DNA from: an uncultured Bacteroidales bacterium
Lineage (GTDB): Bacteria; Bacteroidota; Bacteroidia; Bacteroidales; Muribaculaceae
Direction of reading: 5' to 3'
Length of the DNA stretch: 62,435 nt
Assembly (NCBI GenBank): GCA_902776435.1
Contig: CACYQB010000018.1
Location: 1 to 62,435 of the forward strand
Positions 8,078-49,857 of this stretch are shown one piece after another. Position 1 is the stretch's first letter; every line of letters starts with the position of its first letter. The translations under genes were made by a program, and so were the position numbers. Under the pieces are notes generated by a model. The model saw only the letters and a program-made list of their open reading frames with translations. It made no database searches and was not told where the DNA came from.

Positions 8078-8125
8078 ATGCTAAAAAAACTAACAACTAA
8101 AAACTATCAACTAAAAACTTTTCAT

Positions 8126-8216: not shown

Positions 8217-10679
8217 ATGAGCGAAAAGACTACTGGAAAGAGAAAGAACAAGAGCCGCAGCATCACCCGCAAAATGTGGACCTGGTTTGCCATATTTGTC
8301 GGCTTACTGGTGCTGATGTTTGTGTTAATTTACAATGGCGTGATTGGCTATATGCCGCCCATTGACCAGTTGAAGAATCCCACCGACAAGTTTGCCTCGA
8401 CAATCTACAGTGCCGACGGCGTGGAGATGGGACGTTACTACCGTAGCCGCAGCAACCGCATCTATGTGGACTTTGACGAGATGTCACCGCATTTGACCGA
8501 TGCTCTTATCGCTACCGAGGACTCTCGATTTGATGAGCATTCCGGTATCGATGTCAAGGCTATCGGCCGTGCGATCATCAAGCGCATCATTATGGGTCAG
8601 AAGAGCGCTGGTGGTGGCAGTACCATCACTCAGCAGTTGGCCAAGCAGCTGTATTCGCCTGAGTCTCACAACATCTTTGAACGCGCCTTGAAAAAGCCCG
8701 TCGAGTGGGTAATCGCGGTCAAACTCGAGCGCTATTATACCAAGGATGAGATTATCAAGATGTATTTCAACCAGTTCGACTTCTTGAACAACGCTGTGGG
8801 TGTCAAGATGGCAAGCCGTGTCTATTTTGACAAGGAACCCAAGGACCTGAACATCCAGGAAGCTGCCACACTGGTGGGTATGTGTAAGAATCCGTCCTAT
8901 TATAATCCCGTTCGCTATCCCGAGCGCACTCGCCAGCGCCGCAACGTGGTATTTGAGCAGATGGTCAAGGCTGGCTATCTGAGCGAGGCCGAGTGCGAGC
9001 AGCTCAAGAACTTGCCTCTTGTGTGCAAGTTCCAGAAACTGGACCATAACGATGGCCCCGCACCTTACTTCCGTGAGGAGTTACGCCGTGTGATGTCGGC
9101 CAAGAAGCCCAACCGTAAGGACTACCCCTCGTGGAATCAGCAAGCCTTCATAGACGACTCGGTAGCCTGGGCTGTCAATCCGCTGTTCGGCTGGTGTAAC
9201 AAGAACACCAAGCCCGATGGTTCACATTATGATATATATACCGACGGTTTGAAGATCTACACGACCATCGATTCCCGCATGCAGGAGTATGCCGAGAAGG
9301 CCGTGCACAAGCACATGAGCAAGACCTTGCAACCGGCCTTCCTGCGTGAGCGTGGTGGTACCAAGAATCCTTATACCAACAACAAGCAGGAACTTTCCAG
9401 CGCTGGAAAGCAAGCCCTCATCAATGCGGCCATCCGTCACAGCGAGCGTTACCGTGTCCTCAAGAACGATGGTTTGAGCGATGCCCAAATCATGGAAAAC
9501 TTCAAGAAACCCGTGCAGATGCACCTGTTCAACTACGAGGGCGGGTTTGATGCCCAGATGTCGCCGTTGGATTCGCTATTATACACCAAGTCATTCTTGC
9601 GTTGCGCTATGATGTCGATGGACCCCGTAACAGGTTTTGTCAAGGCCTATGTGGGCGGTCCCAACTTCCGCTTCTTCAAGTATGACATGGTATCAACAGG
9701 CCGCCGCCAGATTGGTTCGACGGTAAAACCCTTTGTCTATTCCCAGGCCATCGAGTTCGGTGGTTTGACTCCTTGCTCGACACGTCCCGGTGGTGCCCCC
9801 AATATCATCTGGAACAATGAGGTTTACAACCCTGCCAACGAGGGTAGTGGTGGCGGAATGACGCTGAAGCAGGCCCTGAAGTACTCTAAGAACTGGATTT
9901 CGGCTGGCTTCATGCGTGGTACTCGTGAGAACTGGATTGAGCGTAATGGTTACTACACGATGACACCGTCTGAGTTGGCTAAATGGATGCACAGTTTCGG
10001 TATCACGAGTTATCTGGATCCCGTGCCCGCGTTGAGTCTGGGCTCTTGTGAGGTCACGCTGCGTGAGATGGTGGCAGCCTATTCCGCATTTGCCAATGGT
10101 GGTATGCGTGTCGAACCGGTTTACGTTTCTCGCATCACCGACAACCGTGGTAATGTCCTTGCTGAGTTCACTGGAAGCCAGACCGAGATTATGAGCGAAG
10201 ACACTTACCTGAAGATGCTCTCGATGCTGACCGAGGTTGTTGATGGCGGTACAGGTGCACGCCTGCGTTACGCTTATGGTATCACAGCCGAGATGGGCGG
10301 TAAAACGGGCACTACCAACTTCCATAGCGACGGTTGGTTCATGGGCTTCACGCCCGAACTGGTTACTGGCGTATGGGTAGGTGGTGAAGAGCGCTACATC
10401 CACTTCAACAGTATGGCAATGGGTCAGGGTGCCGAAGCAGCGCTTCCCATCCTGGGCTATTACATGAAGTGGATCTATGACGACAAGACCTTGCCTTACA
10501 AACAGAGCACCAAATTCGACTTCCCCAAGGACTTCAACGCCTGCGGTGACGAACTGGGTGGCTACTACGGTAGTGGTGGCGGTGGCGGCTGGCACGGCGG
10601 CGGAGGCGGCGGTGCCGAAGGTGACGGCGGCGGTGGCGGAGGCCAAGACGACGCAGCCACCGAAGGCCTCTTCGACTAA
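8217..10679 (+). CDS. penicillin-binding protein 1A (bifunctional transglycosylase/transpeptidase)
   Basis: This 820-residue class A PBP polymerises and cross-links peptidoglycan at the outer face of the inner membrane. It has a basic cytoplasmic start and one membrane helix (about 21-45). The GT51 domain contains the catalytic Glu in ATEDSRF (E101) and GGGSTITQQLAKQL (132-145). The transpeptidase domain carries SxxK at S501-K504 (GSTVKPF), a KYSKN box and K696-T-G. The last roughly 45 residues form a low-complexity Gly-rich tail with runs of five and six glycines, ending in acidic residues, which is not part of the catalytic fold. The gene is monocistronic or leads into the four-helix gene 36 bases downstream. 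Confidence 0.95.
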   Translation: MSEKTTGKRKNKSRSITRKMWTWFAIFVGLLVLMFVLIYNGVIGYMPPIDQLKNPTDKFASTIYSADGVEMGRYYRSRSNRIYVDFDEMSPHLTDALIATEDSRFDEHSGIDVKAIGRAIIKRIIMGQKSAGGGSTITQQLAKQLYSPESHNIFERALKKPVEWVIAVKLERYYTKDEIIKMYFNQFDFLNNAVGVKMASRVYFDKEPKDLNIQEAATLVGMCKNPSYYNPVRYPERTRQRRNVVFEQMVKAGYLSEAECEQLKNLPLVCKFQKLDHNDGPAPYFREELRRVMSAKKPNRKDYPSWNQQAFIDDSVAWAVNPLFGWCNKNTKPDGSHYDIYTDGLKIYTTIDSRMQEYAEKAVHKHMSKTLQPAFLRERGGTKNPYTNNKQELSSAGKQALINAAIRHSERYRVLKNDGLSDAQIMENFKKPVQMHLFNYEGGFDAQMSPLDSLLYTKSFLRCAMMSMDPVTGFVKAYVGGPNFRFFKYDMVSTGRRQIGSTVKPFVYSQAIEFGGLTPCSTRPGGAPNIIWNNEVYNPANEGSGGGMTLKQALKYSKNWISAGFMRGTRENWIERNGYYTMTPSELAKWMHSFGITSYLDPVPALSLGSCEVTLREMVAAYSAFANGGMRVEPVYVSRITDNRGNVLAEFTGSQTEIMSEDTYLKMLSMLTEVVDGGTGARLRYAYGITAEMGGKTGTTNFHSDGWFMGFTPELVTGVWVGGEERYIHFNSMAMGQGAEAALPILGYYMKWIYDDKTLPYKQSTKFDFPKDFNACGDELGGYYGSGGGGGWHGGGGGGAEGDGGGGGGQDDAATEGLFD

Positions 10680-10685
10680 ATAGGA

Positions 10686-10713
10686 GATAAAAGATAAGAG
10701 ATAAAAGATAAGA
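10686..10713 (+). repeat. heptamer array, 4 units (GATAAAA/GATAAGA)
   Basis: Four alternating units GATAAAA, GATAAGA, GATAAAA, GATAAGA are followed by GATG, whose ATG is the start of the four-helix-bundle gene. The array begins seven bases after the PBP1A stop. An array of the same heptamers in inverted orientation lies at 11124-11158, so the two can pair across the intervening gene. Confidence 0.95.
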
Positions 10714-10714
10714 G

Positions 10715-11074
10715 ATGGCCGATAGCTTGACATTTGAGAAGAGTAAGGGATTTGCCATACGAATTGTGAATCTCTATAAATATTTGTGCAATGAGAAGAA
10801 GGAGTTTGTTATGTCCAAGCAATTATTGCGATGTGGCACTTCAATTGGAGCAAATCTCTCAGAAGCATTGTATGGAATAAGCCGTAAAGATTTTCTTGCA
10901 AAAGCATCGATTTCATTAAAAGAAAGTGTAGAGACAAGATATTGGCTTGAGTTGTTGAACAAAACAGGTTATCTAAACGATAATGAGTACGAGAGGATTG
11001 ATGGTGACTGCGAAGAGTTAATCAAGCTCTTGTCAAGTACTGTGATAACAACTAAACAAAACAATTCTAAATAA
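10715..11074 (+). CDS. four-helix bundle protein (23S rRNA intervening-sequence / S23-like family)
   Basis: This 119-residue all-helical protein carries the TIGR02436-type pattern: F-E-K-S-K-G-F-A at the start, SKQLLRCGTSIGANLSEAL in the middle, then F-L-A-K-A-S-I-S-L-K-E-S-V-E-T and YWLELL. The family includes proteins encoded inside 23S rRNA intervening sequences and relatives of Avd from diversity-generating retroelements. Here it stands alone between inverted heptamer arrays, with its ATG formed by the end of the first array. Its base composition is clearly more AT-rich than PBP1A and folD on either side, which suggests separate acquisition. No reverse transcriptase, variable repeat or rRNA is nearby. 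Molecular function is unknown; nucleic-acid binding is inference. Confidence 0.88.
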   Translation: MADSLTFEKSKGFAIRIVNLYKYLCNEKKEFVMSKQLLRCGTSIGANLSEALYGISRKDFLAKASISLKESVETRYWLELLNKTGYLNDNEYERIDGDCEELIKLLSSTVITTKQNNSK

Positions 11075-11095
11075 AGAATAAGCAATCAATAAGAA

Positions 11096-11125
11096 GAGGT
11101 GCTTCGACACTTGTCAAAGCACCTC
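11096..11125. terminator. hairpin after the four-helix gene, between convergent genes
   Basis: GAGGTGCTT (11096-11104) pairs with AAGCACCTC (11117-11125), giving a 9-bp stem. The loop contains a further short GACA/TGTC pairing. A T-rich heptamer array follows on the plus strand. It lies between the four-helix gene and convergent folD and probably terminates transcription from the left. Confidence 0.7.
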
Positions 11126-11158
11126 TTATCTTTTATCTTTTATCTCTTCTCTCTTCTC
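11124..11158 (-). repeat. heptamer array, inverted copy (3 perfect plus 2 degenerate units)
   Basis: On the plus strand the units read TCTTATC, TTTTATC, TTTTATC, then TCTTCTC twice, abutting the folD stop codon (11159-11161). The first 14 bases are the exact reverse complement of units 3-4 of the array at 10686-10713, and G-U wobble would extend an RNA stem to about 28 pairs around the four-helix gene. Confidence 0.93.
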
Positions 11159-12037
11159 TCATTCGTAGATTTCTTTTTTGGCGGCGGAAAGGGTGTTCTT
11201 CATCAGCGAGCAGATGGTCATGGGACCGACACCGCCGGGGACAGGGGTGATATACTCGCACTTGGGGGCCACCTCGTCAAATTTCACGTCACCATTCAGG
11301 CGGTAGCCGTTCTTGGCGGTGGGATCGGCAACGCGAGTCGTGCCCACGTCGATGACGATAGCGCCATCCTTAACCATATCGGCAGTGACGAAGTTAGGAC
11401 GGCCAATGGCTGCGATGATGATGTCTGCCTCAAGGCATTCCTGCTTGAGGGTTGTAGAGTGGCTGTGGCAAATGGTCACTGTGGCGTCGCCATGTTCCTT
11501 CTGGAGCATCAGCTGGGCCATCGGCTTACCCACGATATTGCTGCGTCCCAGCACCACGCACTTCTTGCCTGAAGTTGGGATGTTATAACGCTTCATCAGG
11601 GTGATGATACCCAGTGGTGTGGCTGAAATGAAACTGGGCAGACCCAAGGCCATGCGTCCGGCGTTCATCGGGTGGATGCCGTCAACGTCCTTGCGGTAGT
11701 CAATCGTGTTGATGACTTTCTGCTCATTGATGTGCTTGGGTAATGGCAGTTGCACGATAAAGCCGTCAACATCGGCATCCTCGTTGAGCTGTCTGATGCA
11801 ATCTAGCAATTCTTCCTCAGTCGTATTTTCCTCCAATCGGATGAGTGACGACTTAAAACCACACTTCTCACATGCGATAACCTTGTTCTTTACATACGCC
11901 TCCGAGCCGCCATCGTGTCCCACGAGTACGGCTGCCAGGTGCGGGCGCTTCATGCCCGCTTCTATCATCTGCTCCACCTCGGCTTTGATTTCTTCCTTGA
12001 TGGCAGCGGCAGTCATTTTTCCGTCTATCAGTTTCAT
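11159..12037 (-). CDS. folD: bifunctional methylenetetrahydrofolate dehydrogenase/cyclohydrolase
   Basis: This 292-residue FolD interconverts 5,10-methylene-, methenyl- and 10-formyl-tetrahydrofolate in the cytosol. The signatures are [17 protein letters not shown] (with the YxxxK catalytic pair), [40 protein letters not shown] for NADP binding and the C-terminal [12 protein letters not shown]. The length is normal. The stop codon directly abuts a heptamer repeat array, so the array may form its 3' untranslated region. It lies downstream of priA on the same genomic side but is separated by 153 bases carrying its own promoter. Confidence 0.97.
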
Positions 12038-35500: not shown

Positions 35501-35654
35501 TCTTATCTTTTATCTTTTATCTCTTATCTCTTATCTTTTATCTCTTATCTCTTATCTCTTATCTCTTATCTCTTATCTTTTATCTTTTATCTTTTATCTT
35601 TTATCTCTTATCTCTTATCTTTTATCTCTTATCTTTTATCTCTTATCTCTTATC
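35501..35654 (+). repeat. 22-unit perfect heptamer tandem array (TCTTATC/TTTTATC)
   Basis: Twenty-two uninterrupted 7-base units fill 154 bases; 13 are TCTTATC and 9 TTTTATC, differing only at position 2. The same units, read on the other strand as GATAAGA/GATAAAA, form the arrays at 10686-10713 and 11124-11158. The array fills the whole gap between the ATP-grasp-like gene and the VanY gene. It reaches into the latter, supplying its last codons (GAT AAG AGA) and stop (TAA). Confidence 0.98.
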
Positions 35655-36614
35655 TAAATAGTAGGCATAGTACTCGTCGAAGGTAATGTCTTCGTCATGG
35701 ACTCGTTTGGCCACCTCCTTGCCCACGTAGCGCAGGTGCCACGGCTCGTAGGCAAAACCAAAGATCTGTGACTGCCTCTTGGGATAGCGCAGGATAAAGC
35801 CGTATTCATGGCAATGCTCCCGCATCCATATGCCTTCCTCGGATGTATCAAATGGCCATCTCATGGGATGCTGCCGCGATGTGACGTCGATGGCAAAACC
35901 CGTCTGGTGCTCGCTGCTTCCTGCCCGGGCAGCATATCCTTTTGGGTTGCGCTTATAGGTCCCGATTTGATCCTGATAGGAGCGGTAGGCCGAGTTGACC
36001 ATCAACTGTGCATCGGTCTGCTGCTTGCATGCCTCCTGCAACGCCATGAATGCATCAACTACAACACGCTGAGCCTTTTGATGCTCATAGCAGTAGTCCA
36101 TGCTGAACGTGGCCAGACTGTCTGGCTTGTAGTTCTCATCCAGATAATGGCGGCCATTGACCAGCATGAGTTGGCCTTTGCTGGTGTCGCAGGGAACGGC
36201 ACTTGATTCTCGGTCTTGGTCGGCGCCGATGTTAACCAGCGCAACGATGTTGGTGAGTGGTGCGCCAGTCGTGTCCTTCTTGTGGTAGGCGAGATAGCGA
36301 TTAAAGTTGTCGGCAATGAAATAGCGCTCGCTGAGTAATGGGATAGCGATGGTGTCGTGTTCGTCATGAGCAATGAACGTGTCGGTTTCAGCTTTACTCA
36401 GTACCGATACGATTTTTCGGGCGTCCTCGATGGGGTAGCCCAGCCGGTAAACTTTGCACTCGTCGCTATTGTAATAGACGATACCCTGGCAGCTCTTGAC
36501 AATCACCAGCAACACGAACAACGCTGCGATGGTGCAAGGAACCGACAACCAGCGGTTATCGCGATCAGTCCATCGCCTGATGAGTTTCTTGAATTGTTCC
36601 GTTGTGCGTTGCAT
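35643..36614 (-). CDS. D-alanyl-D-alanine carboxypeptidase (VanY-like, M15B)
   Basis: This 323-residue membrane-anchored peptidase has a single N-terminal helix (about 25-46). The C-terminal M15B domain has zinc ligands H236 and D243 in S-S-E-H-Q-T-G-F-A-I-D and H293 in EPWHLRY, with E290 as catalytic base. It trims the terminal D-Ala from peptidoglycan stems in the periplasm; vancomycin resistance is not implied, because housekeeping homologues are common. Residues about 50-180 form an N-terminal domain of unknown role. The last three residues, Asp-Lys-Arg, and the stop codon are encoded by heptamer repeats. msrA ends six bases upstream of its start, so they share a transcript. Confidence 0.92.
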   Translation of the reverse strand: MQRTTEQFKKLIRRWTDRDNRWLSVPCTIAALFVLLVIVKSCQGIVYYNSDECKVYRLGYPIEDARKIVSVLSKAETDTFIAHDEHDTIAIPLLSERYFIADNFNRYLAYHKKDTTGAPLTNIVALVNIGADQDRESSAVPCDTSKGQLMLVNGRHYLDENYKPDSLATFSMDYCYEHQKAQRVVVDAFMALQEACKQQTDAQLMVNSAYRSYQDQIGTYKRNPKGYAARAGSSEHQTGFAIDVTSRQHPMRWPFDTSEEGIWMREHCHEYGFILRYPKRQSQIFGFAYEPWHLRYVGKEVAKRVHDEDITFDEYYAYYLDKR

Positions 36615-49611: not shown

Positions 49612-49760
49612 TAAAGCCAATTGTTTTTTACTACCTAATTTTTCGGCAAAAAAATGGCAGTATTTAACACAAATTAGCAAAAATCGACCTAAAAACACGG
49701 AAATAATATTAAAATCCCGATAAAAACTACATTCCGAAACCACTAACGGCAAGTATTTTT

Positions 49761-49853
49761 CAAACGGCTAATTACACGAACGGCATCCGCGTGACAAGTC
49801 ACTATTCATGGAGTGCGGATGCCGTTCGTGTAATTCGTATAATTCGCCGTTTG
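49761..49853. terminator. very long inverted repeat downstream of thiL
   Basis: A 21-bp perfect stem (49770-49790 with 49815-49835) is enclosed by an outer 8-bp stem CAAACGGC/GCCGTTTG (49761-49768 with 49846-49853). It sits four bases after the thiL stop and probably terminates thiL, but it is unusually long. Confidence 0.75.
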
Positions 49854-49857
49854 TAAA

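Follow-up and report, generated by a model that had tools for sequence, protein, structure and literature searches.

The closest described counterparts of the locus analyzed here are the intervening sequences (IVSs) of bacterial 23S rRNA genes. In Coxiella, the IVS carries an S23p gene, measures 428 nt, has ends paired over a 28-bp stem, and is excised by RNase III; S23p itself is apparently not produced in vivo (PMC4990558). The same source describes IVSs as lower in G+C than their genomes and sporadic in distribution, naming Leptospira besides Coxiella, and reports that the S23p of Xanthomonas is a homopentameric ring. Structures of the S23/IVP family have been solved, and its function is not known (PMC4990558).

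A second body of work concerns arrays of tandem heptamers, such as TAACTGA in Beggiatoaceae, GGGAATC in Xanthomonas, GGGGATT in Nostoc, and GGGACCG in Geobacter (PMC4679880, PMC4692102, PMC2700814). Heptameric repeats are reported to be over-represented in bacteria, and polymerase slippage has been proposed as the cause (PMC4692102). MacGregor (2015) described TAACTGA heptamers, with no evident mechanism, in Beggiatoaceae and their relatives, in Cyanobacteria, and in Bacteroidetes, and raised the possibility that the mobile element is a repeat-binding protein (PMC4679880). The passages of PMC4679880, PMC4692102, and PMC2700814 that deal with heptamer arrays do not tie them to S23/IVP genes or to inverted gene flanks, and we found no paper in the open-licence PMC literature joining S23/IVP genes to inverted heptamer arrays. 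Degenerate heptanucleotide repeats that pair into a hairpin are also described in P6b of the Nostoc tRNA-Leu intron (PMC3488679).

An S23/IVP gene between inverted heptamer arrays

We analyzed a stretch of 62,435 nt (the window) from a Muribaculaceae draft genome of 95% completeness (G000). In it, an element of ca. 474 nt from array to array lies between PBP1A and folD, and its arms are made of GATAARA heptamers. The features are the following:

10682-10714, + strand: left arm, GATAARA heptamer array directly 3' of the PBP1A stop, with exact units at 10686-10713
10715-11074, + strand: S23/TIGR02436 four-helix-bundle gene, 119 aa, 35.6% G+C, four helices predicted
11091-11124, + strand: hairpin in the gap between the gene stop and the right array, within inverted repeat I3 and paired in the RNA fold
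11123-11158, - strand: right arm, inverted GATAARA array with exact units at 11124-11144, followed by GAGAAGA-like units, touching the folD stop
35501-35654, - strand: gene-less GATAARA array of 22 units, running from stop to stop

The original prediction had described an S23 gene enclosed by GATAARA heptamers at 10686-10713 and an inverted array of them at 11124-11158, and this anatomy can be read directly in the sequence. The units of the left arm are, in order, GATAAAA GATAAGA GATAAAA GATAAGA; the ATG at 10715 arises from the next heptamer unit, the ORF stops at 11072-11074, and the inverted array makes contact with the folD stop at 11159. The perfect pairing of 14 bases between the two arms was confirmed, and where a wobble-extended stem of about 28 had been proposed, 31 of 33 positions pair between 10682-10714 and 11123-11155 when wobble pairs are included. 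Folding the RNA of 10676-11165 gave arm-to-arm pairing with a z score of -4.87 (versus 100 shuffles). The gene is also, as claimed, more AT-rich than its neighbors (35.6% G+C versus 53.2% in PBP1A, 53.6% in folD, and 51.1% in the window). The hairpin at 11091-11124, possibly a terminator, has counterparts, identified by eye, in G007, G017, G049, and G052. Two features count against reading the element as mobile, namely, that its content is a single ORF and that no recognized nuclease or polymerase was found within it. At gathering scores, Rfam returned two tRNAs only for the whole window and no structured RNA at the S23 locus. A further heptamer array (AAAAACT/AACAACT) lies upstream of PBP1A, at 8085-8119.

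The encoded protein matched TIGR02436 with 99.1 bits (cut-off, 24) and PF05635 with 94.3 bits (cut-off, 33.8), and its predicted structure consists of four helices (pLDDT, 95.1). The best structural match (Foldseek) was the five-chain structure 2rld of an S23-family protein from Bacteroides thetaiotaomicron (57% identity), and the second was 2gsc of Xanthomonas; resemblance to Avd (4dwl_D and 8ub7_E; TM of 0.74 to 0.76 by query length, E of 0.09 to 0.13) was weak and not significant. Comparison with the gene at the same site in G007 indicated purifying selection (dN, 0.066; dS, 1.19; ratio, 0.056), a value that comes from one pair, with dS saturated in all 14 others. Such selection suits a host role as well. 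A reading as a defence system was dropped, there being no PADLOC match.

G000 has three TIGR02436 genes, with arms of GATAARA, TTTAGGY, and AAGTTTA, respectively. The third copy (L003, on C30) is broken by a stop and retains its inverted AAGTTTA arms. Another frame of this genome (L004, G000:C17:38235) and similar frames in the genus, many of them of 180 to 280 codons, match TIGR02436 at ca. 25 to 35 bits, over roughly the first 70 to 80 profile positions.

Inverted arms and their units across the TIGR02436 family

A profile search of 41 genomes (that of the window and 40 relatives) provided 91 clear TIGR02436 genes (at least 48 bits, with split matches merged). L004, other matches of ca. 24 to 48 bits, and G028:C85:4662 (48.5 bits) were left out as doubtful, and G014, which had only doubtful matches, was counted as gene-free. 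To these we added 93 genes, comprising 80 named genome loci (the top-ranking ones of 582 confirmed) and 13 plasmid loci hand-picked for spread among the 46 match rows listed. We compared 200 bases of flank on each side; short flanks removed 4 of the 91 and 3 of the 93 genes, leaving 177 testable. Neighboring ORFs of at least 120 codons in the same loci, rather than annotated genes, were used as controls.

An inverted match score of at least 16 was found at 138 of the 177 TIGR02436 genes versus 16 of 449 neighboring ORFs (Fisher p, ~1e-82), so that the predicted enrichment of repeats at these genes over unrelated ones was borne out. The cut-off of 16 corresponds to the 95% level in a cross-pair control and was picked after the scores were known. 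The raw control count was 18/451, from which two TIGR02436 genes were removed; one more match, a GxxExxY gene (see below), was retained among the 16. At a score of at least 20, the numbers were 110/177 versus 10/449, and period-7 arrays on both sides were present at 72/177 genes versus 2/451 control ORFs. Under a harsher control, in which arms of different elements, with the same AT-rich heptamer style as the real ones, were paired, 34/89 and 32/90 genes exceeded the 99% level. Because the genes are non-independent, those sharing any homologous neighbor were merged, and of the 97 resulting sites, 72 (first member) or 78 (best or median member) scored at least 16. The remaining 39 of the 177 genes scored below 16, i.e., had no clear inverted repeat, which counts against a mobile element.

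Judging by record titles, the TIGR02436 matches listed come from Bacteroidota, Clostridia, Spirochaetota, Cyanobacteria, Gemmatimonadota, and others; many of these records are metagenome bins, and single phylum labels may be wrong. Some of the genes sit within operons, between cas6 and cas4, cas2 and cas1, the beta and alpha genes of ribonucleotide reductase, or hsdS and hsdR. In Pseudanabaena/Anabaena plasmids, two genes located in cas operons (L301 and L308) have inverted repeats on both sides.

Of the 138 elements whose arms matched, 121 had a best lag of 7 or 14 and 9 had one of 8. The heptamer unit varies between elements, yet it is common to both arms of one element. The expectation of GATAARA-flanked TIGR02436 genes in other genomes thus stood with regard to inverted heptamer arms but not with regard to GATAARA as a fixed sequence; as a family signature this motif was rejected, with more than one match in only two carriers among the 25 genus genomes surveyed. 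Unit similarity tracked protein identity (r, 0.389), above all 2,000 shuffles (largest, 0.172), among 110 elements with period-7 arms, counting only pairs from different genomes and without homologous neighbors. It was 3.1 of 7 positions where the proteins were 20 to 30% identical and reached 4.96 in the 8 pairs with at least 80% identity. The correlation was found both in the genus of the window (r, 0.550; 36 elements) and outside it (r, 0.419; 74 elements), each time exceeding all 2,000 shuffles. The 37 same-genome pairs had a mean unit similarity of 3.33 at a mean identity of 0.38, approximately as alike as protein identity predicts, and therefore the unit belongs to the element and not to the genome.

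Occupied sites, empty sites, and scattered arrays

Thirty folD loci were read, and in 15 of them, including the window, PBP1A converges on folD. Empty versions of the site, which the original prediction had proposed to look for in relatives, do exist: the gene is present in 6 of the 15 genomes and absent in 9. The unit of the occupied sites is GATAARA in the window and G007, GTTAAYA in G017, G049, and G052, and TAGATAW in G048. Relative to its neighbors, the gene is flipped in G017 and G048. At this site, three unit types accompany one protein type, so that strict sequence specificity of recognition can be excluded. Two of the nine gene-less sites appear by eye to keep a remnant hairpin, made of GATAAGA in G020 and of TAGATA in G019, where it is short. 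Within the six copies, the left arm matched the right with scores of 30, 30, 21, 32, 34, and 21, and scores across unit classes were mostly lower, with exceptions of 24 (G007 left and G048 right) and 21 (G052 and G048). In G052, the two arms do not differ at all and even have a variant unit in common. That both arms changed together points to copying between them. Inspection of the folD site by eye revealed no target-site duplication; the arrays blur the ends there. The best named match, L217 (a MAG of uncultured Bacteroidales RUG11934), shows the same succession of PBP1A, the gene, and folD.

Recurrence at unrelated sites was observed for related elements rather than for the window's own copy. 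Among the pairs listed (L064/L098, 88%; L269/L277, 85%; L064/L097, L097/L098, L098/L101, and L064/L101), elements of 75 to 88% DNA identity occupy different sites, and homology stops 35 to 108 bases beyond the gene; L064 and L101 (75% identity) are both in one genome. A base-by-base check of L064/L098, L269/L277, and L064/L101 placed the end of homology at the arrays. Many other pairs listed were one site in two genomes or a match internal to the gene. The same gene, a putative cysS, is followed by L064 in one case and preceded by L098 in the other. The original prediction had proposed a free-standing, possibly mobile, IVS-like element; the enrichment, the gene-less sites, and the copies elsewhere speak for it, and what has to be given up is the notion of a GATAARA-only repeat.

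Nor is GATAARA special to the S23 gene. Besides the 22-unit array at 35501-35654, two-unit matches with up to two mismatches occur 30 times in the window (0.75 expected), and the G000 genome has at least 17 array places, both arms included. GATAARA triples numbered 93 in G000, 39 in G007, 17 in G049, and one in each of four other genomes, with none in 54 of 61; in each of the 23 non-carrier genus genomes surveyed for the gene there was at most one match. The 17 matches of G049, which lies outside the 25-genome survey and has a GTTAAYA element at its folD site, count against a mobile element. For two other units, carriers were assigned by hand from the arms among 25 genus genomes, and counts include the elements' own arms. 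AATKCAY had 12 to 163 matches in carriers of an AATKCAY-armed gene and none in 16 of 20 others (56 in one other), and GTTTAGR had 3 to 74 in carriers and none in 12 of 19 others (up to 26 in the rest). Scattered AATKCAY arrays in G011, G005, and G034, which had no AATKCAY-armed gene in the survey, again count against mobility. Any of the three units was present in 21 of 32 gene-bearing versus 0 of 9 gene-free genomes, an association for part of which genome relatedness accounts.

Simple period-7 arrays in 100-kb samples numbered 17 in G009, 2 in G018, 2 in G049, and 0 in both G000 and G026, with 4 in the window and 0 in three gene-free genomes (298 kb sampled). Their absence from the samples of the gene-bearing G000 and G026 is a further point against a mobile element. 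Three array pairs of G009 form hairpins with a short loop containing GCGGATGC. For 11 gene-less GATAARA arrays in G000, an inverted partner was sought in a 3-kb stretch each and found for none (0/11); 7 of the 11 lie closely 3' of a stop codon, in the direction of the gene. The array at 35501-35654 spans the gap between two convergent genes and encodes the last codons (DKR and stop) of the gene at 35643-36614. At this junction, there are 22 units in the window, about 7 in G049, and a degenerate stretch in G041, and several other genomes have CGCTAAG-type repeats or no array.

Among the control ORFs with inverted flanks, one turned out to encode a GxxExxY protein, of a PD-(D/E)XK-like family. 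We took the best 30 GxxExxY loci and excluded one below the cut-off; of the 29 tested, 24 had inverted flanks scoring at least 16, and in 18 of these 24 the best lag was 9. GxxExxY matches above the cut-off occurred in 27 of 32 TIGR02436-bearing versus 1 of 9 TIGR02436-free genomes, and genes of the two families were located no more than 5 kb apart 6 times versus 0.97 expected (41 genomes). In G000, for example, L318 (GxxExxY, 1501-1848) and L001 (TIGR02436, 1501-1818), at G000:C1:42041 and 44704, are 2.7 kb apart. The window also contains a gene-less inverted hairpin at 49757-49856, downstream of a putative thiL, with nine-base-like repeats TTCGTGTAA TTCGTATAA TTCGCC, plus GGCATCCGC, and an RNA fold z score of -6.83; GGCATCCGC is also present in the arms of GxxExxY elements.

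Explanations and relation to known systems

On balance, we lean toward the array-to-array unit being a small mobile, IVS-like element of S23/IVP type, whose protein recognizes the tandem units; both its movement and its excision from RNA are what we infer from these patterns. The protein, a pentameric ring by homology, would bind tandem seven-base units, about one per subunit, and thereby recognize the arms in nucleic acid. At the RNA level, the arms could pair into a stem of ca. 30 bp that RNase III might cut as in 23S rRNA IVSs, which would make the presence of the element in operons harmless. In DNA, the arms might be kept alike by mutual copying (template switching on the hairpin), with inversion permitted, and the scattered gene-less arrays of the same unit may be by-products or partial copies, so that the element might also seed short repeats around genomes. 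Our best guess for the mover is a host activity that acts on the hairpin and is guided by the protein. There seems to be no general need for a reverse transcriptase, because the G000 draft and the drafts of 20 of the 32 gene-bearing genomes have no RVT_1 match.

Alternatively, a nucleic-acid-binding protein adopted by the host could use the arrays as its recognition sites, for autoregulation and a scattered regulon, with movement being rare. The dN/dS ratio of 0.056 (G000 versus G007), the location of 7 of the 11 scattered arrays examined closely 3' of stops in gene direction, and the dependence of unit on protein would all fit, but the gene is found at the folD site in only 6 of 15 genomes and is inverted in two of them, related elements have arm-delimited copies at unrelated sites, and genes are placed inside unrelated operons, so that we regard this explanation as unlikely. 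The same 3' location bears on a chance layout, in which convergent PBP1A and folD would each have a stop-proximal array and the S23 gene would be a bystander: since arrays follow stops in gene direction, convergent genes would yield an inverted pair, and at least 17 array places in the genome offer material for it. The arms at 138/177 TIGR02436 genes versus 16/449 ORFs, operons included, contradict such a coincidence, as do units that differ between elements while being common to both arms and genes that travel with their arms in related elements; it seems very improbable.

Plain slippage, by which AT-rich intergenic spots grow heptamers that genes tolerate, can draw on the over-representation of heptamers and the slippage proposed for it (PMC4692102), as well as on the variable array length at the 35501 junction. 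We give it hardly any credence, since it accounts for neither inverted partners nor a protein-tied period nor the unit-protein correlation. As for a retroelement with a helper, an Avd-like protein would recruit a reverse transcriptase in trans to copy the hairpin RNA. Avd is a component of DGRs (PMC10053308), and the fold matches to 4dwl_D and 8ub7_E (E of 0.09 to 0.13) are in keeping with this, but RVT_1 was missing from G000 and 20 of the 32 gene-bearing genomes while being present in 5 of the 9 gene-free ones, making such a helper quite improbable.

The small mobile element may belong to something broader. We would put at somewhat less than even the chance that these elements are a new class with inverted tandem-array arms and a unit length set by the encoded protein (7 for S23/IVP and 9 for GxxExxY), that their proteins generate or spread bacterial heptamer arrays, and that 23S rRNA IVSs are members that landed in rRNA. 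MacGregor's repeat-binding protein would presumably be of the kind found here. S23/IVP proteins, of which the function is not known, and heptamer arrays, for which there was only the slippage hypothesis, are now joined, and both become testable; the shift of period with protein family (7 versus 9) is a strong handle. The two S23 genes in cas operons also offer a simple reason why a figure legend of Altae-Tran (2023), dealing with CRISPR adaptation modules, mentions "23S rRNA IVP".

Compared with known systems, the window element resembles the Coxiella IVS as described in PMC4990558 in its protein family, similar size, pairing ends, low G+C, and sporadic distribution. In contrast, it lies between protein genes (PBP1A and folD) outside 23S rRNA, and it is therefore not an IVS in the strict sense; seen from the side of the element, its arms are tandem heptamers of variable unit, and these units are also scattered as arrays across the genome. 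In REPIN/RAYT and MITE systems, a gene lies between inverted repeats, and gene-less copies of the repeats are scattered. The S23 element likewise has a gene, inverted repeats, and scattered gene-less repeats, but it has no transposase, its repeats are 7-base units in arrays, and single arrays occur besides pairs. With Avd of DGRs it shares a four-helix bundle, at the level of a weak fold match, whereas the draft G000 genome has no RVT_1 match. The Nostoc P6b repeats also pair into a stem, as the heptamer arms of the window element do, but they are internal to an intron, and the description in PMC3488679 mentions no gene. Finally, the element shares with the heptanucleotide arrays described so far (PMC4679880, PMC4692102, PMC2700814) the tandem heptamers, the many places per genome, and the lack of an accepted generator.
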